From Halichondria panicea (lineage: Eukaryota; Porifera; Demospongiae; Suberitida; Halichondriidae), in the NCBI RefSeq assembly GCF_963675165.1, contig NC_087377.1, positions 14,504,198-14,568,197 on the forward strand: 64,000 bases of DNA, given 5' to 3'. The notes under the pieces were generated by a model, which was not told the DNA's origin, searched no databases, and saw only the letters and a list, made by a program, of their open reading frames with translations. Within the stretch, counting starts at the first letter, position 1. Each line of letters begins with the position of its first letter. Below, in pieces: positions 1-59,577 of the stretch. Both the position numbers and the translations under genes were made by a program.

Positions 1-95
1 TTGCTTGCTCACTTTTGTGATCGAGGGGGGTCAATTCTTGATTTGGTTGTGGCAGTAGTAGAATTCACAGGAATCTGAATTGGTGATAAGAAACA
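1..95 (-). pseudogene. Exon fragment of a receptor paralog (like exon 10 of the 2194-5571 gene)
   Basis: Read on the minus strand this segment encodes IPVNSTTATTKSRIDPPRSQ followed by a GTGAGC donor-like site. It closely matches exon 10 of the downstream receptor (2991-3065), with a shortened middle. It may be a live exon of a neighbouring gene running off the left edge, or a relic: the next fragments (515-600, 1085-1145) are clearly broken and the exons expected between them are absent. Confidence 0.6.
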
Positions 96-2193: not shown

Positions 2194-5100
2194 TCACACT
2201 TCTGCTGGTTTGGAGCAAACTGATCGGGTTGGAATAGGTGGGGGAACAGAAGCCCCATGCTTGTACATACAATCTGGTATGTCATCAAAATTAAGCTCAA
2301 TTGGAAGACAACCTATAAGTAATACAGTAAACGATTATAACTATAATTATAATTATGCATAATTAAATGGATGGATGCACAGAAATTGTTTGTGGACATA
2401 ATAAGGTTAATTAGCTCACACCTGTTTCATAGACCTCCATAAGCAAGTTAGCAAGCTGTTCTTGTCCCACACTCTTTAAGGCATTACCTAGCTCCCTCCA
2501 TGTTGGCTTTCCATCACAATTCCTTATCCAGAAGTCAATCACTTCAGTAATTCCCTGAACGTCATTGCCAGCACAATAAGGCTCCACTTGCTCAATGTGA
2601 GTCTCTGGCACATTTAGAGCCTTTCCAATCTCTCTCCATTTGCCTTGAACTGATTTCAACTGTACCAAGACTCGGTCAAGATCGACTAACTTGTCAGCTT
2701 CAATCCCTGTGCAATAATGCCATATGCATTCAGTCATTAATACATGGTATGCACATAGTTATGCATACCCTTTGCAGCAGTTTTCTGAACTGGCTTTGGT
2801 TTAGGCATGGCTCTCGCTCTTGACTTAGTGGCTTCAAAGTCTACTGTTGTATAGTCCACTATCTTGGGGTCAAGCAAGTATCCAGTTGACTGACTGGGAA
2901 GTGTACTAACTTCAGAGTAAACTGGACCTTGTGTCTGGTAGCACGCACGTATGAAATTGTGAAATAATTATAAACTGAAAAGTTACTCACCTGTGATCGA
3001 GGGATAAAAATTCTATCATATTCTGATTCGAATTTGGTCGTGGCAGTGGTGGAATTCACAGGAATCTGAATGATAAATATAATACACCATGGATGCATTA
3101 TTATATTCATAGCAATTTATGCCTTACTTGTGGGAAGTGTCTCAGTTGATCAAAAGTCGGCTCATTGACGACTGGAAGTCGACCTGTGATTGTCCATTTA
3201 ATGTTATTCATCCACAACTGTTACAATCAAAACTATTACAATGTAATCTCTAATTATTTACCTGTTTCATAGACCTCAAGGAACTGTCTGGCTAGTTCTT
3301 CTTCACCCACTAATTTCAAAGCATTTGCCAGCACTATCCATGTTGGTCGTCCACTGCAGTTCCGCATCCAAAAGTCAATCATCTCTTTCAATCCAGCACT
3401 TGAATTATCTTTACAGCGTTCTTCCACTTGTTCAATGTGAGCTGTCGGAATGGAAAGGGCAAATCCAATTTCTTTCCATTTTATCTGTACTGTCTTCAGT
3501 TGTAATAAGCTCTGATCCAAATTTAACAACTTGTCAGCTTCTGTAACTGGATGTAAGAAAGGATATTATTAATTGTACATATTCATAAGAACATTTCATT
3601 TTGTGAAGATTATCTTTCACCTCTTTCCTCTAGAACCAACACCGCTCTACTTTCGGAAGCTTCAATATCCACCATAGCGTAGCTCACAGAATGATTGTCA
3701 TATGGGTTTCCATCGACTTCCTGTGGACAACATAGAAATATCGTATCATGCATGTGAGACACTTGAGTTTGACACTTTTACCGGTTCATCTGATGGCTGT
3801 GTCTTTGTTCTCTCTGCATGTATAGAAAAAGGATTCAGTGTAATGCAGTTGGTAAGACATTCTTACTCTTTTTTATTCTGAAATTTTTAGAGCGCATTTT
3901 CAGCAGTACGATCAAAAGAATGACCACTATGATCGCAACAACAATTCCTCCCGCAGAACCGAGTATCGATTGTATCAATACTCTTGAATTTGCTGTATTT
4001 AAACAATAATTTTGTTATAATTTTATTTGTGTTATAAATGATCATGAATTGACTGATTTGGAATTTTACCTTGTCCTAAACAATTTAGGTCTTCAAGGTC
4101 TGAACTCCACTGGTACATACTATTACAGGCAATGAAATGTGGTCCAATGAGCTTGTATCCTTCTTCACACCAAAATGTGATAGTTAAATTTTCACCAGTG
4201 CTCGTGTAGGAATATTTGAGTAATAAGTTGTTGGTTAGCCTTTTTGGAAGTGCACTGCATTTCTCTGCATATACAAGTATATATAGCATACACGTTATTT
4301 TAAAAAACACTATACTATGTATTTATAATTGAGGGGAGAGTGATCCAACCCACAAAACCATGCAGTATTATAATTATACAGGAGGATAATTTCAAAGACT
4401 ATTTTCCTATTATTTTTTGGAGGATTATGTGCAGCATTTTACTTTGTATTGGCCACTCAGCATGTCTTCAATTTTATTACTGTTATGTAGTTAATACTAC
4501 CTTCTTCACAAAGTAGGTCAGCAGGATTTGGCACCCACTCTCCTCTTCCTGAAACTTTAATACACATTGCTGTTCTTGGGTGACTGGGAAGTAGACCATT
4601 ATCACACTGTAGCACAATTTCTGACCCTTCCGTGAAATCAGACTCAGTCGATAAAATTGTAAAGCTCCCGTTGATAAGAGTGGAAGGTGTATCACACACA
4701 ATAGCACCAGCTTGGGGATAAATGAGTAAATATATATGAGTTATAACTATAAAGTAGATCTAATACCTGGTATGCTGCTACTGTATGTAGTGATATTACT
4801 AGTCCCTATGTTGTTTTTAGCTTGAAGGGCGACAACATAGATTCCAGTTTCCAAAACTTCAAAGGATACAGAGCAAGTTGGTGTGCATACTCTACTACTG
4901 TTCACAATTTTATTGTCATTTGTACCATCAAAGAGAATTAGGGAAACATTGTAAAGGATCTCCTCTTGGTATTGTGAACATTTAGCCTGCAAAGTATTAA
5001 AATGCAGTTAACTTGCGGCATATTTTTATGAACTTACGTATTGATTCCAAGTGACTGTCAGTATAAAAGTATTGATGCTCACACTGAAATTATAGACATT

Positions 5101-5571
5101 GGGTACTGTCTCTTCTACTATTGAGATGTTCACTAAGGTTTCATTGAAGTTTTGTGCATCACCACATCTGATCTTAAAAACCTTCTGTACCCCAATGGCT
5201 ATTTGAGAAATATCTAAAGAAAGAACTGATGAGAAATTTGCAAAGATTCTCAAAATTTTGTCCTGGGACAACTCAACAAGTTCGACAGATGCAGAGACCA
5301 ATGTTGAGTCATTAAAGACTTTTGTGGTCTCATTCACACTATCAGTATCAAAGCGTTTGAGCAAATACATGTTGTCATCATGGTAGAACTTCCACTCTAG
5401 CAGTGTGAGGTCCACTCCTTCACAGAACAGTCTGACAGTTCCAGGACAGTGTTCACCAACCAGACTCACTCCTCCCTCAACAGTCAGAGACACTGATGAT
5501 GAGTACACCTCTCCATTGATTATTGAAAATAATATGACTAGCAGATCTATTACACTTGCAATTAGAGTCAT
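2194..5571 (-). CDS. Type I receptor: Ig-like/FN3, two sushi, TM, two Death domains
   Basis: Thirteen exons splice in one frame to 798 aa: 5571-5038, 4986-4767, 4710-4501, 4264-4070, 3992-3867, 3813-3782, 3720-3621, 3540-3262, 3183-3128, 3065-2991, 2934-2769, 2706-2422, 2312-2194. All introns are GT-AG and every phase matches. Order: signal peptide (1-20), Ig-like region (GEHCPGTVRLFC, then W and IRCGD), FN3-like region to about 251, sushi 252-321 and 322-386, membrane helix about 395-417, then a long cytoplasmic part with Death domains at about 473-565 (KWKEIGFALSIP, ending LARQFLEVYETG) and 665-760 (KWREIGKALNVP). Tyrosine motifs VSYAMV (Y453) and VDYTTV (Y637) fit the ITIM pattern; PVYSEVS (Y615) and PPPIPTR near the C terminus look like SH2 and SH3 ligands. 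Death domains recruit adaptors in known receptors, so signalling is the likely role. The ligand is unknown. I see no break. Confidence 0.88.
2422..2706 (-). other. Death domain exon 2 (single symmetric phase 1-1 exon)
   Basis: This 285-nt exon encodes about residues 665-760 of the receptor. The pattern is that of a Death domain: an LDRVLVQL helix, W-R-E-I-G-K-A-L, an IEQVEPYC helix, VIDFWIRNC, PTWRELGNALKSVG and a closing LANLLMEVYETG. It is a clear duplicate of the 279-nt exon at 3262-3540. The last exon adds a proline-rich tail. Confidence 0.85.
3262..3540 (-). other. Death domain exon 1 (single symmetric phase 1-1 exon)
   Basis: This exon encodes the first Death domain, about residues 473-565, with W-K-E-I-G-F-A-L, IEQVEERC, MIDFWMRNC and PTWIVLANALKLVG. 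The exon before each Death-domain exon carries a related tyrosine segment, YAMVDIEASESRA here and YTTVDFEATKSRA before the second. The duplicated unit was therefore tyrosine motif plus Death domain. Confidence 0.85.
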
Positions 5572-6465
5572 ATCATATGCTCTTAGTGTTTAGGCCTAGC
5601 TCTCAGTCTGTGAGTAGATTCTACAGTAGTTGTTTATTAGGAAACAGCTCTAGCTTGGCACTAGCCTCGACTCCAGCCCCTTCAATCATAGATACTATAA
5701 ATTACAGTATCTATGCTTTAATCATAGATACTATAAATTTATAGTTTCAATAGTGGCCTGGTAAACTGTTGGAGCGTGGGTGGAAATATTTACCGTATTT
5801 TATCTCATTGAACGTTAAAATAGTATTTTATCTTATTGAACGATGTGATAAAGAACAGAAAAAAGAAAAAGGAGAGGCTACCTCTCTGTATATACTGTAG
5901 ACAGAGACAGCTAAGTAAAACCTCAGCTCTGTACATTTAGCCATTAACTTGAGGCTCGGATCAGATATACACTCAGGCGACAAGTCAATCTCATAAGAAA
6001 TTAGTTAAACCTGTGGGTAAAAAATAAATGTGGATAAGTACGTACAGTGGCTGCGACGTAACATAATGTGAGGACTACTTATTGATTTACACAATAGATT
6101 TACCATTGAAAGCACTATCCATTAATACACACTCAAGCAACAAGTCCCTCGGATCGGATACACACTCAGGCGACAAGTCCCTCGGATTGTAAACACATTC
6201 AGGCAACACATTTCTCGGATCAGATACCACGTACTTACTCTGTGACCAATTTTCGGCAAATGTCACAACAATGCTTCCTTCCAAAGAGAATGGCACTGAA
6301 CGTCAAACAGACACACCAACACTTTGAAGATGGCTTCACTCAGAGAAACAAGAGGAGAAATCACCACCACAGCACTTCTTTCAGAGAGAGGTTCACTGGT
6401 CCTGTCAAGCTTCACATACTAAAGCTGATGGGAAGCTCTAATTAAAGCGGCAAGTACCTCGGTTC
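5572..6465. other. Upstream region with small tandem repeats
   Basis: This lies 5' of the 2194-5571 receptor, so its promoter should be here, but I recognise no specific element. It holds short duplicated motifs (ATCATAGATACTATAAAT, about 5687-5740) and three copies of a unit of about 33 bp (about 6128-6230, core CTCAGGCGACAAGTCCCTCGG). 6410-6465 is the left half of a dispersed repeat whose right half resumes at 10224 and whose uninterrupted copy lies at about 35010-35340 in reverse. Confidence 0.5.
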
Positions 6466-7374
6466 GGGGATACATAGCCTCGATCCCAGGCCGCTCTTCC
6501 TCAAAGAGAGGGCCTGGTATCGACTGTTTGCGCATGCGCCACATAATCCCCAGAAACTGGGGACTCCGGATATCATCGTATAATGCTCAGTAAAACCATG
6601 ACGTCACAACGAACGGAAGTGGGTTGAAGAAAGTGGAGAAGAAGGTTTCTAGCCCGTGTGATAGCATTCTAATAGCTACCCTTAGCCTGTTATGTTAACA
6701 AAGAACTCACAGCCTGCAACAGTGTGGATGGCAATGTCTGAACGAAGGGAAGGCTGACAATAGCCTATATGGACAGGCCACGCCCATCTGACACTAACCT
6801 TGGTGAAATTCTACATGTAGACTCTATCAGAAGAAATAGCATGCTGTAACCAAACGTACAGCTCTGTCTCTAGCTAGCTAGCTATATAGCTCTGTGTATG
6901 TAGTGTTCTTTGTGTGTATATGTTATTCAGGATATTTTTCGGGTAAAATGTCAGTTTAATGGAAACATTACGGGGAAATTATCCAATAATTTTGCGCATG
7001 CGCAAACAGTCAGTAGCAGGCCTCCTTTTGAGGCCTTGTGAAGGAGGCTAGGCAAGAGTTTATGATAGAGAGAGAGTATCGAACGTAGGCATACTGTGTA
7101 TCAGATGTATGCGGAGAGTAACGTGACTTCCTGTATCTGTCACAAGCTTGGAATTTGCACACTGACCAATCCAAGCGTGGGTGATGTAATCTATCAACCC
7201 ATCCAAGTGTGGGTGATGTAATCTACTTTCTTGATAGATGACATCACCCACACTTGGATTGGTCAGTGTGCAAATTGTGACAGATACAGGAAGTATGGCG
7301 CGCCGTGTGTTTCAATAACAATGTCTGCATATACATAGGCGTGTCCTGGTGTGAATATACCGACATAGCATGCA

Positions 7375-7877
7375 CGTGCAATGATCGCCTTATGCAGTGA
7401 TCATGTCTGCACATGCAACCATTAGTCTCTGCACATGCAGTGATCATGTCTGCACATGCAACCATTAGTCTCTGCGCATGCAGTGATCATGTCTGCACAT
7501 GCAACCATTAGTCTCTGCGTGTGCAGTGATCATGTCTGCACATGCAACCATTAGTCTCTGCACATGCAACCATTAGTCTCTGCACATGCAACCATTAGTC
7601 TCTGCACATGCAGTGATCATGTCTGCACATGCAACCATTAGTCTCTGCACATGCAGTGATCATGTCTGCACATGCAACCATTAGTCTCTGCATGCGTGTG
7701 CAGTGATCATGTCTGCACATGCAGTGATCATGTCTGCACATGCAACCATTAATCTCTGCACATGCAGTGATCATGTCTGCACATGCAACCATTAGTCTCT
7801 GCACATGCAGTGATCATGTCTGCACATGCAACCATTAGTCTGTGCACATGCAGTGATCATGTCTGCACATGCAAATG
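7375..7877 (-). repeat. 43-bp satellite array, left arm
   Basis: About 11 irregular copies of a 43-bp unit lie in reverse orientation relative to the array at 8048-8700. Each unit contains TGCATGTGCAG and ACATGATCACTGCATGTGCA on the minus strand. Apparent reading frames through it only echo the repeat (period 43 codons) and are not genes. Confidence 0.9.
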
Positions 7878-8047
7878 TGTTCCAGCCGAGTACTTCAATG
7901 GCAGATTCGTCTTCATCCATGTCCATATCATCTATTATATCTATCATTAATTTTTAATACATCTTTGATACACGTGCTTTAAATAGAGCTGCTGCATCAG
8001 GTCAAAGTATATGTTTCTCAATGGGACTCAGGTACACCTGTACTGTA

Positions 8048-8700
8048 CTGCATGTGCAGAGATTAATGGTTGCATGTGCAGACATGATCACTGCATGTGC
8101 AGAGACTAATGGTTGCATGTGCAGACATGATCACTGCATGTGCAGAGACTAATGGTTGCATGTGCAGACATGATCACTGCATGTGCAGAGACTAATGGTT
8201 GCATGTGCAGACATGATCACTGCATGTGCAGAGACTAATGGTTGCATGTGCAGACATGATCACTGCATGTGCAGAGACTAATGGTTGCATGTGCAGACAT
8301 GATCACTGCATGTGCAGAGACTAATGGTTGCATGTGCAGACATGATCACTGCATGTGCAGAGACTAATGGTTGCATGTGCAGACATGATCACTGCATGTG
8401 CAGAGACTAATGGTTGCATGTGCAGACATGATCACTGCATGTGCAGAGACTAATGGTTGCATGTGCAGACATGATCACTGCATGTGCAGAGACTAATGGT
8501 TGCATGTGCAGACATGATCACTGCATGTGCAGAGACTAATGGTTGCATGTGCAGACATGATCACTGCATGTGCAGAGACTAATGGTTGCATGTGCAGACA
8601 TGATCACTACACACGCAGAGACTAATGGTTGCATGTGCAGACATGATCACTGCATGTGCAGAGACTAATGGTTGCATGTGCAGACATGATCACTGCATAA
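8048..8700 (+). repeat. 43-bp satellite array, right arm
   Basis: About 15 nearly identical tandem copies of a 43-bp unit (ACTAATGGTTGCATGTGCAG, ACATGATCACTGCATGTGCA, GAG). With the opposite array across the roughly 170-bp spacer 7878-8047 it forms a large inverted repeat able to fold back on itself. The high homogeneity suggests recent expansion or gene conversion. Confidence 0.93.
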
Positions 8701-20847: not shown

Positions 20848-22693
20848 ATGCATGCATGCATAAATGAAATATGTCATTTACAGACTACTGTGCACTTCCA
20901 GTGTGTACTACACCTGCTGATCTTATGTATTCTTACAGTTGAAGGTCAGTTAATCATTTCCTTATATACATTATATAGGGATTGTAATTTTAGACTTGCA
21001 ATTCATTACTTCACCTCCCTCAATTAACTGCTATGTTCCTATGAAATTATGTGTATAGGTATAACACCTTTCGTGTCTCTGACTGTCGAGGGGAGTCTAG
21101 TTGGTGAACACTGTCCAAGAACAGTCAGACTGTTCTGTAAGGGGGTGGATTTGTCTATTTTAAGATGGAGATATAATGGCGGAACTGGAATCTACTCGTT
21201 TTCGACCACTGACTTGCCAATGATCTCAATTCTGTCTAGTCCTGCTTTTATGTCCGTAGAGTTAACTAATGTTACGCAAACTCCGAATGATCCAAGATTC
21301 GCACAATTTACTTCAGTTCTGATTGTGGATATTGCTCAACTTCAAGCTCAAAATGTAGCAAGTATTAATTGTGGGGACCCTGGAACAATTGCTACCGAAC
21401 CAGTTAATGTAATTATTCTCAAACCGTCTGTCCCCAATAATCCTGTGATAACTGCTGTGACTGCTACCTATAAGTTTGGCCTTTTGATGACCCTTGAAGT
21501 ATCATGGATGGAGTTGGTTAGTACATCATCATGCATGCTAATGTAGATATGCAATGACAGTTAATTGAGTCTTTACAGGAAGAAGTTTGCCTGGAATTCA
21601 AGACCTCGCTTGTATACATGCTGAATCTAACTAGTCCACTATCACCACCGACTGTTGTTGAGGATGACCGAATTAGTTGCAGAGGCGGGATGTGCGTTGG
21701 ACTGTTTTCAAATATTTCAGAGAATGTTACAGTAGTGGAGGAGTACACTCTGTCACTGAGTGCTAGAAATGACATGGGATTAAGCAAAGACTCTGCATAT
21801 CAAAACACAATACGTAAGTCACTTTTATAGATGTGATTATTTTCATGTTTACGTAACTGCATAGAGCAACAAAGTGATCAATACTTTACTCCTGAAATCT
21901 TGAATTCTACCAGCTGCGAAATATTTGTTCGATGTGTGTCAACATATACAAGTCTAAACAATGCTACATGTTCTGTGTCATATGGTATGAATGCCAGCAC
22001 TGTCACTTTTCTACTTAACAACACAAAATTACGTGTTTTAAATGAACTTCAGTCAGCTGCAGAGTCACACTTATTCGTTTTCTCGTTGATGGTTGATCAC
22101 ATTTTAAGAATAAATGTCATCAAAGAGACGAGTATTTCAGGTAAGATGCATGCATAATAACTTTGTGCATGCATGATGATTGACATTCGTAACATGTACA
22201 TATAGGTACCTGTGAGAGAAAAACGAATAACGCTGATATCGATACAATACAATTTGTCGTCCTTTTCACATTAATAATTATTGTTGTGGTGTTGATGACG
22301 GTGCCAATTATTATAATGTGCCGTTTTGTTGTTGGAATTAAGGTAAAAACGCATAATTATATTTTTGAGTGTGTCTGTTAAGAGAGCCGGCCATAATAAC
22401 AAGAGTCTTGTTATTATGACTCTTGTTATTATGGCCGGCTCTCTGTCACCCATGCATGCACTTAATTGCACTTCATTGACAAGCCATTTTGTTTTGCACG
22501 AATTGGTATAATGATTAAAACTCACTCTGAATTACAGCCACCCCGTTACTCTGTATAAAATTAATAACAATTAATGCATGGTCAGTTCTATTACTTAGCC
22601 CTTAACACGATTGCTTACCCTTTTCTATAGCACTGTAACAAAAGTCAGAAGCCTAAAGAAGAGTATCCAGTGTCAAAAAATAATGACAATTAA
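20848..22693 (+). CDS. Type I membrane protein with Ig-like/FN3 ectodomain and short tail
   Basis: Exons 20848-20944, 21059-21516, 21579-21813, 21865-22140, 22206-22342 and 22631-22693 join in one frame to about 421 aa. The start is the least certain part: the first exon gives a hydrophobic leader (VLHLLILCILTVEG), but an acceptor-like TTTACAG inside it could mean an earlier exon. The Ig-like exon has GEHCPRTVRLFCKGV, LRWRYNGG and INCGDPG and is close to the exon at 30767-31230. An FN3-like region follows, then a Cys-containing module (SCEIFVRC, ATCSVSYG) of no family I know, then the membrane helix FVVLFTLIIIVVVLMTVPII. The tail is only about 25 residues, with EEYPVS, and has no Death domain. 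A decoy, co-receptor or ligand role is possible but not shown. Confidence 0.8.
22381..22444. repeat. Perfect 27-bp-stem hairpin in the last intron
   Basis: AGAGAGCCGGCCATAATAAC and the next seven bases are exactly complementary to 22418-22444, with a 10-base loop. It lies in the intron between the membrane exon and the last exon of the 20848-22693 gene. Confidence 0.9.
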
Positions 22694-30630: not shown

Positions 30631-32908
30631 AAGATAAAACACCGCTTTCTTGACATTGTATTGGGGGGACTTTGCATCTTACCATTTCTATCAACTGGGA
30701 TTCAAGGTATATATAGTACAATTATTCAGCTTGGGAATTTTCTAATCTAAAACTGTGCATGTATAGGGATTTCACCAACAGTCAACCTGACTGTTGAGGG
30801 AGGAGTGAGTCTGGTTGGTGAACACTGTCCTGGAACTATCAGACTGTTCTGTGAGGGAGTGGATCTGACTACTTTACGTTGGCGATACAATGGGGACAAC
30901 GTTATTTACTCATTTTCGACCACTGATTTGCCAATAAACTCTGTAACAACTAATCCAGCCTTCATAAATGTTGAATTAAAGTTTGTTGCTTCCACCCCGA
31001 ATGACGAAAGATTTGGAAATTTTGTTTCGGTTCTGACAGCGGATATTGCCCAACTTCAATCTCAAAACGTAGGAAGCATTAATTGTGGGGACCCAGGAAC
31101 AATTGACACGGAACCAGTTAATATTAGGATATTGCAACCATCTATTCCTATTACGCCAAGAGTATCTTTGGTTGTTGCTACCTACCATTCTGGCACATTA
31201 AGGAAAATTGATGTCTCATGGATAAAGCTGGTATGATCGCAACTATGTAATACAGACTTACGTCTACCGTATTTATTTTTCAGGAGGAGGATTGCCCAGA
31301 ATTTGCAGCTACAGTCGTGTACGAGCTGCGTCTAACTGGAGTGCAGTCTCGGTCACTAACTGCCAACCAAACTAGCTGCAGATCTGAATTGTGTGATGAA
31401 TCTTTTTCACTGAATTTTTCTGGCAAAAGAGCAAATGTCACTGGGTACAACCTCTCATTAAGAGCAAGGAATAACATCGGCTCTAGTGAGGCTGTTATGT
31501 ACCAACTAAGTAAGTTGTGTGTGCTATTGAGCAATTTGGATACTGTACTAATTTTTAGCGGGAAGTTTTGCGCATGAACATTTTCATTATTTCCGGCTCA
31601 CGAGGCTGAGCCCTCGATATCATCAGAAAAAATGTTTGTGGGTTGTATTCAATGCCAAGAAACTACACCTATACTAAGAGCTTTGCATGTGAAATATACC
31701 GGTGCATGTGTGGAAGTTTCTCCCAGTTTTATAAATTTGAATTAACTGCTCTGCCCTTGAAAAAAGCAAAATTGTTCACCTCACAAAAATGTCCCGCTAT
31801 ATAATTATACGGTAACATGCATGCGCTGCCTTCATTATTCAACAGAGCAGCAGAGCAATCAGTACTTCTCAACTGAAATCAATGCCACAAATTGCCCATC
31901 ACTACGTACTCAGTGTGTATCAGAAGATTCAAATCTACGCAATACCACCTGTTCTGTGTCCTATGGAACTGATCCTACATTTATGGATCTCCCCAACAAT
32001 ATCAACTCTTCCTTTGATACTCCTTTCACGATAGCAGCTGGGCTTTCTTCTAACACGACATTTTTTCTGGCGTATTCTACACCCGTTCGAGGGTTGAATG
32101 CTATTATTCTGATAGTAATAAGAGAGACATTAACTACAGGTATATAACTGGTGTTTCACCTTTATGTAATAACGATATATATTCACGTGTATTGTAAATT
32201 ACAGATATAATTATACACAAGTGTGGTTTTTGTTGGTGAAAACCACACATTCTTTACCGATATAAAGTGATATATATACATGCAGTAAAATCGATATAAT
32301 GCATGCATTCATAAAATCAACTCAAATTGAATGCATGCATGCAATCCGTGCAGATGTATGTGAGCACGGGCCCAATGTTGCATCAATTGTAGCACCAACT
32401 GTGATCATTCTGATACTGCTGTTCATCATTGGAGTTGTTGTATTTTGTTGTGCACGAAAGAAAATTAAGGTGAGATGATAACTATAATAATTTATCTTGA
32501 AAGAGTACTCAGCAGTAGTCTACTGAGTAACTGAGTATAGACAGGTCTGCAGTTGCAGTGTGGACTTGAAACAGGATGGCATTAATTGTTGGTCTGCCAT
32601 GCATGCTCCTATAAATTATATACTAGAATACTCACATTTCTTAGCAAGAGAAAACTGCTTGTGACTATTAGCTAAGTATATTTTTGTCATGTGTATGCAC
32701 AGTTCAGATTCAGTCTGCTGTAGTTCACCATTCAATCTCACTCGCTGACATGCAACTTTGCAACATTTTCAATAATGTCAATTTGTGATAGTTAATCTGT
32801 TCTCAAAGACCACATCTACATGTATACTGATTCAGTTTATCATATTTTGTATTTAAAGTCATTATTATGCCTCGGTGCGCATGCGCAAGCGAGGTATATG
32901 GTAGTGTG

Positions 32909-38882: not shown

Positions 38883-39115
38883 TTATGGTGGTCCTACTGA
38901 TCCATACGCTTGGTTAATGTTCAGTTCCATCTCCTCTTTGGGTGACACCTCCTCATAAACAGGACCAGCTGATGCAGTGGTTCCTACATTGGCTTGTCCT
39001 TCAGCTGCCGGGGAGTACACTGCCTACTTACATATGATCCAGTATGTCAATAGAGCACCACAAGCACAACCAGAAACCATTGCCACAAAAAATTTTACAA
39101 TTGTGCATATCACAG
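38883..39115 (-). pseudogene. Membrane/tail exon copy with in-frame stop
   Basis: It matches the last exon of the 57409-59577 gene: GCACGALLTYWIICK, then TAG where the working gene has AAG, then the tail GPVYEEVSPKEE and a natural TAA after YGSVGPP. The rest of the gene is not present beside it. Conservation of the tail against a dead membrane segment suggests recent decay. Confidence 0.75.
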
Positions 39116-39874
39116 CTGTTCGCAGATATCGCAGTTGACACTAGTCACACTTTGTTCAATAACAGTAGTAGACAACAGAAACAGCATAACACTCATAACC
39201 TAATCATAACCTAGCTTGCACAGAACTCAAGAACTTATATACAGAACACATATAACTCTAGAATGTTCTACCTAGTTCTCTAATGTCAAAGTTCAGCAGC
39301 AGCTACAGTTCTAGAACTAACATTAACTAGAATAATCTAGATGTACAGTCTAAGTGAAGAGTTCACCTAATCACTACACTTGTGGTTTACCACTTGATCA
39401 ATTACTTCCTCTAACAACAGCAACTTCATTGATGCTCAGAGAAACCTTTTTGGAATCTGTGAAATCATGATCAAAACAAACTGGTCGATGGAGATTGCTT
39501 CATTCCAGTCAATATACCTAATGATTATTATTATGCTTACAAGTTGCTCCCTGAAAACGAAAACATACGGTAACAGTAAACAATACATAAATATCGCATC
39601 CTATATGTAAACCACCGGACTGGTATTTAGCTAAATCAAACTGTTGAGTAAACATTGTATGGCTCAATGAATGGTTCATACCCGGAATCTTTACAGCCAG
39701 ATAATTAATCGGTGATTTAAATCCAGCACATAATTATATAGCAGGCTTTTAGGGAATCCTAGAGCCTCACGCATGCATGTTAGGCCATGTAACAGCAATT
39801 AAACTGTTGCCATTCTATATAGTACTAAATAAAGCATCGTTTTTTAATAATTCCGTTTTCGAGGCTATAAGGGC
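39116..39874. other. Intergenic, nothing recognised
   Basis: AT-rich DNA between the dead tail exon and the element at 39875. I see no open frame, inverted repeat or exon similarity that I can support. Confidence 0.4.
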
Positions 39875-42544: not shown

Positions 42545-42780
42545 TCAGGTACAGTCCATGCATACGCCTGGTTAGTATTCAGTTCAACTCTTCTTTGGGT
42601 GATACCTCCTCATAAACAGGAACAGCTGATGCAGTGGGACGGGACGTTAGCTTGTCTTCAGCTTCCGGCGATAAAAACGCCTTCTTCGCATGAGCCAGTA
42701 CATCGATCAAGAGAGCACCATAAACACAACCGGAAACCGCATTAATTGCCATTTCGTTTGCCTGCATGGTTTGTGTTCAA
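42545..42780 (-). pseudogene. Second dead copy of the membrane/tail exon
   Basis: GCVYGALLIDVLAHAKKAFL and later PVYEEVSPKEELN match the tail exon at 57409-57686, but small indels distort the membrane segment and shift the frame after the tail motif, ending early. The expected YEEV motif is intact. Confidence 0.75.
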
Positions 42781-57408: not shown

Positions 57409-59577
57409 TTATTGTCCGACTGGTCCGTATGCCTGGTTAGCGTTCAGTTCAATCTCCTCTTTGGGTGACACCTCCTCATAAACAGGATCGACTGATGCAG
57501 TGAATCCCTGGCAGGCTACGTTAGCTTGTCCTTCAGCTGCCAGGGAGTGCACTGTCTTCTTACGCATGACCCAGTACATCAAGAGAGCACCACAAACACA
57601 ACCAAAAACTATTGCTAAAATAAATGTTACAATTGTGCATATCAGAGCAACTTCATTGGTGGTCAGAGAAACCCCCTGGGCAGAATCTGTAGAGAGTGTG
57701 GAATAATTTACTGATCCTGTCAACAGGTCCAATATACCGAATGAAAACCATGCAATAATAGTTACACAAAATGAGCAATACAACAGTTGCAGCTCTGGCT
57801 GTCAGTATACTGGGCGACTGCACATTTAGTCAATAACAATGAAGAGTAAACATGCATGAGAAATAGCATAATCTAAACCACAAGAGAATTCACTGTTTTT
57901 TACAAACATCGGATCCTCTGCGTTATAGTTTATACCTTCAGTACAGGTGGGAATAGCAGTTCGTGTTCAGAGTTAATGCAAATAGAAATCACTTCACCAA
58001 CCAAGAAGAACCCATAGTCACACTTGAAAGTGATTACTGCAGAGCCCTCTTGAAGCGAACTGTTGTAGCTCTCATAGTAGTCCGGTTTATTTGAAATCTT
58101 ACAGCGAACTAAAATCGCACAAGGTGTACATGCATGCATGCATAATTAATTTTTAGCTGAAGATATAACTATGAAAATTACATGTATAGTTTTATATTTA
58201 GAATTGGGAAAATTCATGTGCATGTATATCTTACTTGGTTCTTCCCTACACGTCAGTTCAGGAGGAATGTTGCTCCATGTTCCATCCTCTCTACAAGTGG
58301 TACTTTTAATGTCATTTGGGAACAGCCCCCTATCACAATGATAGGTCACCACTGTGCCAGTGAGAGAGGTCCTGTTTGTGTACTCGTAATCAATAAAACG
58401 GCCATTAGGAGGTGCCTCAAGGGGTGGGCATTCTAAAGATGTATTATAAATTAAACATTGAAAGCACAGTACAATTTACCTATTGAATGAGATACACAGT
58501 GGGAGACTTCAAGATTTGGTTGCCACAAAGCAAATTGTGTACAAGTTGCTGAAATTGGTCCTGTTGATGTGAACCCTTCATTGCATGTTAGAGTGAGTGT
58601 TTCGCCCTCTGCCTGACCAGTACTTTCAAACATCCCGTTTGTGGTAAAAGTGGGAACCTCACATCTGACTGAAAAGTCATTGTTATAAGCATAATCATTA
58701 TAGAAGACACTTTAGCCTCGATCCTCCCCAGGCCGATAAAACAGACACAACAACTTGGCCTGAGGATGAGCCTAAAGGCATCTTGATTACCTAGTTCGAA
58801 TGTGAACATGGAGGAGGAACTGGACACAGCGCAGTTTATCACCTCCACTATAACTGCATACTCTGTGTTGTACCTTAATTTGAGTTCAACTCTCATCTCC
58901 GCTGTTAGAGCACTGACTGTGTCATTCTCTGAGCTCCCGATCACAGTCACAGAATAGTTGACAGGAGATCCATCACTGAAGTAATCCCACTCAAGAGAAA
59001 CAATGGCAATATTCTCCTCAGTATTATTCAGGGAACTGGTGATACGAATATTAATTGCAGGTGCCGGTGGATCTGTAATATCGATTATATACATACCGTT
59101 AATCCATTGATAATAATTACAATACCTCGATAGGATTACCAAATTAAAGACGGCAGGATACAACTCACCATAAAGATCAATGAATACCATCACTCCAGAG
59201 CACACAATGTTCCGACCATCCATCGACCTGTACAGGGTTACTTCGAGTGTCGAACATAGATTAGGTGTCACTGTGTTTAGAGTTACTGCATATGCTCCAA
59301 GTGTGTCACCAGGAACAATTGAACGCTCTCCGACTATGTTTTCTGATAGTGATCTAATAAAGCTTCTATCAAGGTTCAGTCTCACTTCAGTAGGGTCTGG
59401 TACCAACCATGTCAATGACTCCGCATTAACTGAACAAACAAGACTTATCTTTTCTCCAGGACAGACATTCTCAATTGAGCTTGGTGAAACAATTGCAGTG
59501 ACTTCTTCAAACTTGCTAAAAATGAATACAACAATTACCAGGAGGTGTGAATTGAGTAAACTGCTCATGATATACAT
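57409..59577 (-). CDS. Type I receptor: Ig-like, FN3, three sushi, TM, YEEV tail (one frameshift)
   Basis: Exons 59577-59169, 59072-58791, 58668-58480, 58432-58235, 58108-57936 and 57686-57409 carry, in order, signal peptide (LLVIVVFIFS) plus Ig-like region (ENVCPGEKISLVCS, LTWLVPDP), FN3 (VSLEWDYFSDGSPVNYSVTV), sushi 1 (VRCEVPTFTTNGMF), sushi 2 (CPPLEAPPNGRF, ELTCREE), sushi 3 (CKISNKPDYYES) and a membrane helix (ALICTIVTFILAIVFGCVCG) with tail PVYEEVSPKEE, ending YGPVGQ. All joins agree in phase except the last. In sushi 3 the expected ending AIPTCTE lies one base out of frame, so a base appears missing near 57948-57955. This may be an assembly error or a disabled allele. Two dead copies of its tail exon and one of its sushi exon lie at 38.9, 42.6 and 41.9 kb. 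Confidence 0.8.
58713..58774. mobile_element. 62-bp TAGCCTCG MITE in an intron
   Basis: TAGCCTCGATCCTCCCCAGG and CCTGAGGATGAGCCTA are inverted. It sits in the intron between the FN3 and first sushi exons of the 57409-59577 gene. Confidence 0.7.

Follow-up and report, generated by a model that had tools for sequence, protein, structure and literature searches.

The stretch of Halichondria panicea DNA analysed here (the window) comprises 64,000 nucleotides of NC_087377.1, positions 14,504,198 to 14,568,197, on the contig called C1 below. Its minus strand carries, from window position 5571 to 2194, a 13-exon gene predicted to encode a receptor with two cytoplasmic Death domains, DD1 and DD2. As read from its sequence, the window gene specifies a Death-domain receptor with tyrosine motifs that fit the pattern of the immunoreceptor tyrosine-based inhibitory motif (ITIM). 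Both the Death domain and the motif are doubled, the ectodomain is Ig-like/sushi, and the gene is intact and present twice.

Architecture of the window gene

All 12 introns are of the GT-AG type with compatible phases. The chosen frame has a single stop, at the end, and the remaining two frames of the spliced sequence have 53 and 78. The predicted product has 800 residues if the first exon 8 acceptor (3546) is used and 798 with the second (3540). We prefer the 798-residue model because the second gene described below lacks an AG at the first acceptor. The claim of an earlier, sequence-only reading of this DNA, that one intact 798-residue, 13-exon model joins an ectodomain to two Death domains, could be reconstructed with GT-AG introns and matching phases. 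The order of domains is signal peptide, Ig-like, FN3-like, two sushi, transmembrane helix and a tail of ~370 residues containing both Death domains. A hydrophobic N-terminal stretch is present, and hydrophobic windows at residues about 390–425 (hydropathy up to 3.19) mark a single transmembrane segment. This is very probably the anatomy of a type I cell-surface receptor.

Exon 1 (5038..5571) provides the start codon, the signal peptide, an Ig-like domain with a Cys..Trp..Cys pattern and the start of the FN3-like domain. It is defined by the splicing model and by family copies, and its fold is weakly supported: the predicted model has a mean confidence (pLDDT) of 50, its weak structural matches include V-set Ig chains alongside unrelated folds, and a profile search with the first domain found no Ig chain. 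Exon 2 (4767..4986) holds the remainder of the FN3-like domain, for which Pfam gave just a sub-threshold LIFR_D4 match. The two sushi domains, in exon 3 (4501..4710) and exon 4 (4070..4264), match Pfam sushi (PF00084) with 38.4 bits in two stretches (cut-off 20.7), and the window gene has no Pfam Ig or fn3 match at E up to 1. Of the Ig-like/FN3/sushi ectodomain proposed in the sequence-only reading, the sushi part is thus borne out; the Ig-like label, taken from the cysteine-tryptophan-cysteine pattern, and the FN3-like label are weaker.

Exon 5 (3867..3992) encodes the transmembrane helix and a basic stop-transfer sequence, followed by a juxtamembrane linker in exon 6 (3782..3813) that recurs as the same exon in the second gene. 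Exon 7 (3621..3720) holds the first tyrosine motif, VSYAMVDIEAS, with NPYDN upstream, and draws support from the second gene and from more distant relatives. DD1 occupies exon 8 (3262..3540, with the alternative acceptor at 3546 adding two residues) and was recognized through Pfam and the second gene. The following exons, all present in the second gene, are exon 9 (3128..3183), the tail of the first unit, GRLPVVNEPTFDQLRHFPQ; exon 10 (2991..3065), a linker with the tyrosine site SEYDRI; and exon 11 (2769..2934), which combines a GPVYSEV tyrosine with the second tyrosine motif, VDYTTVDFEAT. DD2 is encoded by exon 12 (2422..2706), identified by Pfam, modelling and profile searches, and exon 13 (2194..2312), likewise shared with the second gene, contributes the tail of the second unit and the stop codon.

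The whole protein matches Pfam Death (PF00531) with 33.6 bits against a cut-off of 22.6. When the two modules that the sequence-only reading had named Death domains were scored singly, DD2 passed (24.8 bits) and DD1 did not (20.0 bits). The predicted DD2 model is a helical bundle (pLDDT 79), and all 12 of the best rows of a Foldseek search with it were Death domains (FADD, Fas-FADD, ankyrin, TRADD), at probabilities of 0.90–1.00 and query TM-scores of 0.50–0.63, with a weak best E-value of 0.029. Searched singly against PDB chains, the DD1 sequence gave nothing significant: the best match (E 0.022) is not a Death domain, and two Death domains follow at 0.17–0.18. A two-sequence profile built from DD1 and DD2 matched FADD at E 7.5e-4. 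We conclude, from sequence profiles and the DD2 model, that DD1 and DD2 are FADD-like Death domains. Another fold for these modules, which the sequence-only reading had considered, is ruled out by the Pfam, Foldseek and FADD profile matches, the single-sequence DD1 search being weak.

A second gene and a doubled unit

A second complete two-Death-domain gene lies in the same genome at C1:14431716-14428370, about 75 kb from the window gene. It has all 13 exons in order and in the same phases, and its frame stays open to the end. Over 793 aligned residues, the two proteins agree at 703 (88.7%), with identity of 84.7% for the ectodomain and 93.5% for the cytoplasmic part. The ratio of nonsynonymous to synonymous substitution rates (dN/dS), computed between the two genes with our own Nei-Gojobori script, reaches 0.54 in the ectodomain, 0.91 in the transmembrane exon and 0.25 in the cytoplasmic part; within the tail it is 0.27 for DD1, 0.20 for the linker and 0.13 for DD2, values for short stretches resting on few changes. 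The two-Death-domain gene is under purifying selection. The second gene retains every one of the ten cytoplasmic tyrosines found in the window gene and has two extra ones, at window-gene positions R420 and C515.

Apparent remains of a decayed two-Death-domain copy are found at window positions 41-74, 515-595 and 1094-1139 and at C1:14503340-14504142, just left of the window, between the window gene and the next receptor copy. These fragments, in minus orientation, correspond to exons 1, 10, 11, 12 and 13 at 80–98% identity, and an exon 11-like piece directly abuts an exon 12 piece.

Within the window gene, exons 7-8-9 match exons 11-12-13: both triplets begin in phases 0, 1, 1, and each runs from a tyrosine segment (SVSYAMVDIEASESRA and IVDYTTVDFEATKSRA, respectively) through a Death domain to a GxLP tail. 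DD1 and DD2 are 62% identical. On this evidence, the cytoplasmic tail is a tandem duplication of a unit consisting of VxYxxVDxxA[ST], a Death domain and a short tail. The ITIM consensus is [SIVL]xYxx[IVL]. The ITIM-pattern tyrosines that had been proposed before each Death domain (VSYAMV and VDYTTV) are both present, and a third site, SEYDRI, also fits the broad pattern.

The six matches to exons 9-11 in the genome all fall in the two complete genes, and the two-Death-domain tail was found in these two genes; a search with the transmembrane segment and exon 7 gave eight matches, four in the two genes and four weak ones (E 0.0067 to 0.31). DD2 itself has at least 69 matches at E up to 0.001 (best 150 of 224 candidates scored). 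Besides the two genes, its nearest relatives lie in C1:11.4-13.8 Mb; they are mostly 45–53% identical over half a domain and have their Death domain split over two exons. In most relatives shown, a search with exons 7 and 11 found QVTYATVD[VI]xAT, or a sequence closely similar to it, upstream of the Death domain. DNA spelling VTYATVD occurs at 18 sites in the 131-Mb genome, all within C1:11.41-13.81 Mb, and a reversed-pattern control gave 0 sites genome-wide. The exact motif is upstream on the same strand at 15 of 17 N-terminal Death-domain exons, at 464–1891 bases in 14 cases and at 5860 in one. An ITIM pattern is thus present in the window-gene tail, kept in the second gene and found before 15 of 17 related N-terminal Death-domain exons. 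The picture of a single odd gene, as first drawn, gives way to one of two similar genes carrying in doubled form a unit found at those 15 related loci.

All 12 loci read have a second ITIM-pattern tyrosine, V[VI]YA[AV]L, 26 alignment columns ahead of the first; the conservation of VTYATVD in these loci is not independent, because they were picked by having it. The tandem SH2 domains of SHP phosphatases bind tyrosines spaced in this range. One single-Death-domain relative, from C1:13394749 downwards, combines Ig-like, fn3 (E 0.0015, below the cut-off) and two sushi domains, in the same order as in the window gene, with a transmembrane segment, two tyrosine motifs and a Death domain over two exons. 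As far as sequence tells, related loci on this chromosome carry a single copy of the tyrosine-motif and Death-domain unit.

The three further VTYATVD sites (L063, L064 and L065, at C1:11780518, 12595231 and 13206426) are near-identical copies of the tyrosine exon and have an in-frame stop soon after the motif. The 2.7 kb read at these sites holds no Death domain, and they may represent a receptor tail lacking that domain or a duplicated dead exon. The DD2 search also returned ten C-terminal half-matches, defined as those with no listed N-terminal half nearby. At one of them (L038, C1:12381291-12384449), an upstream open frame reads ISYSQVDHAA, a looser VxYxxVDxxA that may be due to chance.

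The surrounding receptor cluster

A search with the ectodomain, in which all 113 candidates were scored, returned 103 matches at exon level. Of these, 94 lie in C1:13.95-14.54 Mb, a family span of about 0.6 Mb, eight in C1:11.4-13.9 Mb and one on C15. Next to the window gene lies a copy that shares its ectodomain exons, retains 36 bases of exon 5 as a remnant and has an open frame encoding another transmembrane segment and tail (...PIYEEVSPKEEIELNINQAYGPV). Ectodomains of the window type are therefore joined to at least two kinds of tail. The short transmembrane-YEEV tail of this adjoining copy has at least 150 matches (best 150 of 272 candidates), all within the 3.7 Mb of C1:11.25-14.93 Mb. 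Judged by these sequence matches, C1:11.25-14.93 Mb is a very large receptor complex.

Elsewhere in the window, two further open frames on the plus strand, opposite to the gene, contain its first domain at 41–42% identity to exon 1 (21028-21543 and 30751-31233). Transmembrane-YEEV tails are found on the minus strand at 57418-57687, 38895-39116 and 42585-42737; one near 39000 has an in-frame stop. From about 7360 to 8150, tandem repeats of a short unit, ATGCAACCATTAGTCTCTGC..., appear as repeated open frames. Outside C1, a whole-genome Pfam Death scan, in which 150 of 503 candidates were scored and whose list does not include the window's own Death domains, placed at least 31 of 148 listed matches in C12:1.04-2.08 Mb, another Death-domain array.

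Signalling readings and known systems

The best explanation overall, which we hold at a probability of roughly one half, is that the receptor clusters a Death-fold platform under the control of tyrosine phosphorylation. Tyrosine-regulated signalling through the Death domains of the window gene, as suggested by its sequence, is an even proposition. The receptor would be clustered by a ligand carried by a microbe or by another cell, and the paired FADD-like Death domains could then seed a Death-fold assembly that includes a FADD-like adaptor and a DED-caspase. The tyrosines beside each Death domain would be phosphorylated by Src-type kinases and might then serve as docking sites for an SH2-SH2 phosphatase, or for some other SH2 protein, which would damp or redirect the death/NF-kB output. 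Such regulation would resemble the tyrosine phosphorylation of Fas, the nearest precedent to have been put to experimental test. With two docking sites and two Death-domain seeds per chain, the doubled unit could lower the threshold for assembly.

Candidate partners, given here as orders of domain matches rather than gene models, occur in the genome. SH2, SH2 and tyrosine phosphatase matches follow one another at C3:8406287-8404573 (minus strand; the phosphatase match covers profile positions 11-90 and the first SH2 piece 1-42). At C7:1623085-1623814 (plus strand), a DED match (positions 1-49) precedes a Death match (3-50) by ~450 bases, and the order DED-DED-caspase is found at C10:859830-862894 (plus strand) and C10:2923384-2921362 (minus strand). 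Among the tyrosine phosphatase matches listed, all except 23 lie on C4, an apparent expansion of phosphatase genes; two of those outside C4 are at C1:14.685 Mb, near the receptor cluster.

Several points weigh against phosphotyrosine control of the Death domains. DD1 taken alone stays below the Pfam cut-off. Shuffles of the 372-residue tail gave two or more motif matches in 2560/20000 cases (12.8%) and three or more in 416/20000; the motif count alone is therefore weak evidence, and recurrence in relatives carries the case. At two of the 17 N-terminal Death-domain exons, the roughly 2.5 kb read upstream held no VTYATVD, and the exact motif was found within 15 kb upstream of none of the ten C-terminal half-matches in the same region. 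The tyrosines common to both genes prove little by themselves, because the tails are 93.5% identical, and selection on exons 6-7 is not strong evidence, since dN/dS is 0.47 with few changes (3 synonymous, 5 nonsynonymous). The YxxV sequences of the tail are also compatible with endocytic sorting signals, and we found nothing that links the C1 cluster directly to allorecognition or microbes. As for a chance origin of the tyrosine motif, the counts alone cannot reject it; it is ruled out by the recurrence of the motif before related Death domains, despite ten motif-less fragments.

The tyrosine motifs could instead be endocytic YxxPhi signals, which bind AP-2, or generic SH2 sites, and so set the surface level of the receptor rather than inhibit through a phosphatase. 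YAMV, YTTV, YDRI and YSEV all fit YxxPhi, and the recurrent short tail of the C1 region has YEEV and AYGPV. Phosphorylation of Fas Y291 primes clathrin-dependent endocytosis (PMC4778973). The valine at −2 and the VDxxA[ST] after the tyrosine are kept beyond the needs of YxxPhi, however, and a sorting signal need not sit beside each Death domain. We regard this alternative as rather unlikely, yet the most serious of those considered. Improbable, in our view, is an activating receptor in which the YDRI-(11)-YSEV pair of exons 10-11 acts as an ITAM-like (immunoreceptor tyrosine-based activation motif) site for a tandem-SH2 kinase, with the Death domains as a second activating output. The spacing of Y600 and Y615 (798-residue numbering) and the many SH2 matches in the genome (67) would suit it, but the second half has a valine where the ITAM consensus wants I/L, and the exon 9-11 linker was found only in the two complete genes, whereas VxYxxVD is common to the relatives.

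The Death domains might also serve as scaffolds for adhesion or guidance, as in ankyrins or UNC5-like receptors, with no drive to caspases or NF-kB. Ectodomain modules such as Ig-like, FN3 and sushi are common in adhesion proteins, and ankyrin Death domains are among the Foldseek matches. UNC5 netrin receptors have a ZU5 domain before their Death domain. The window protein has no ZU5 match in Pfam at E up to 1, and FADD and Fas-FADD give its best matches in both sequence and fold, so that we consider a scaffold improbable too. Slighter by far is the prospect that two separate genes, one for the ectodomain and one for the Death domains, were joined in the model by mistake. The ectodomain does occur with another tail in the adjoining copy, but exons 5-7 bridge both halves in both genes; and because the second locus, ~75 kb off, keeps all 13 exons in order, in the same phases and with no early stop, a fusion of neighbouring genes is ruled out.

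What the phosphotyrosine-controlled receptor would be for is a more tentative matter. A role of the window-gene receptor in self/non-self or microbe recognition is possible, though we lean against it on the sequence evidence. It is rather doubtful that C1:11.2-14.9 Mb as a whole is a self/non-self or microbe recognition locus with tails of a few kinds, in which the branch with tyrosine motifs and Death domains makes a phosphatase-gated kill decision and the window gene is its two-headed form. Few of the molecules are known with which sponges and other simple animals discriminate self from non-self and go on to kill or to tolerate. A cluster whose tails differ, and in which one kind of tail links a tyrosine motif directly to Death domains, offers concrete genes and motifs for that question. 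If the recognition-locus reading were true, a single molecule would unite ITIM-type inhibition with FADD-type death, and would do so in a lineage remote from the vertebrates. Should the tyrosines act as proposed, Fas-like phosphotyrosine control would have a separate, more explicit design elsewhere in animals.

The sequence-only reading had set Death-domain receptors, as usually having one such domain, apart from ITIM receptors, as normally lacking them. This contrast was too strong, given the phosphotyrosines of the Fas Death domain (PMC4778973, PMC4572867) and a sponge protein with two Death domains (PMC5793068). In Fas, these phosphotyrosines switch death off and survival on under Src kinases and SHP-1 (PMC4778973), and Tyr291 lies within an ITAM/ITIM-like motif (PMC4572867). 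The window gene, known from its sequence, resembles Fas/CD95 in being a single-pass receptor with tyrosine motifs and a cytoplasmic Death domain, which in Fas pairs with FADD. It differs in its Ig-like/FN3-like/sushi ectodomain, with no Pfam match to TNFR cysteine-rich repeats at E up to 1, in having two Death domains and in placing its tyrosine motifs in separate exons before the Death domains, not inside them. The two-Death-domain sponge protein, Geodia cydonium DD2, was found with primers to human Fas (PMC5793068; also PMC9798719). Compared by description only, it shares with the window gene the presence of two Death domains in a sponge protein. Its expression is reportedly raised in allograft rejection, going by the title of a paper by Wiens et al.

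Sponge genes with Ig, FN3, sushi and DEATH domains respond to microbial cues in transcriptomes (PMC6208332, PMC8242945), as does an Ig and CARD gene of Dysidea avara (PMC6208332). Sponge Ig-TIR and Ig and CARD receptors join an Ig ectodomain to an intracellular adaptor-type domain, much as the window gene does with its Ig-like one. They carry TIR or CARD, neither of which gave a Pfam match in the window protein, instead of a Death domain, and the descriptions consulted speak of neither sushi domains nor tyrosine motifs in them. In the portion of the open-access literature surveyed, we found no description of a receptor that has both Death domains and ITIM-type motifs on an Ig/sushi ectodomain.

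Among the closest known systems are also the fester co-receptors (FcoR) of Botryllus, a clustered family of 53 loci encoding type I receptors with Ig and sushi domains and one transmembrane segment, whose tails vary from member to member in carrying ITIM, hemITAM or YxxI/L/V motifs (PMC12065747). By description, both are clustered type I receptors with sushi domains, Ig or Ig-like domains and varied tyrosine tails. FcoR proteins have C2 Ig domains where the window gene has its FN3-like domain, and the description consulted mentions no Death domains for them. Death-domain receptors and tyrosine-motif receptors are already known, and the combination of the two in the window gene is new as a variant.

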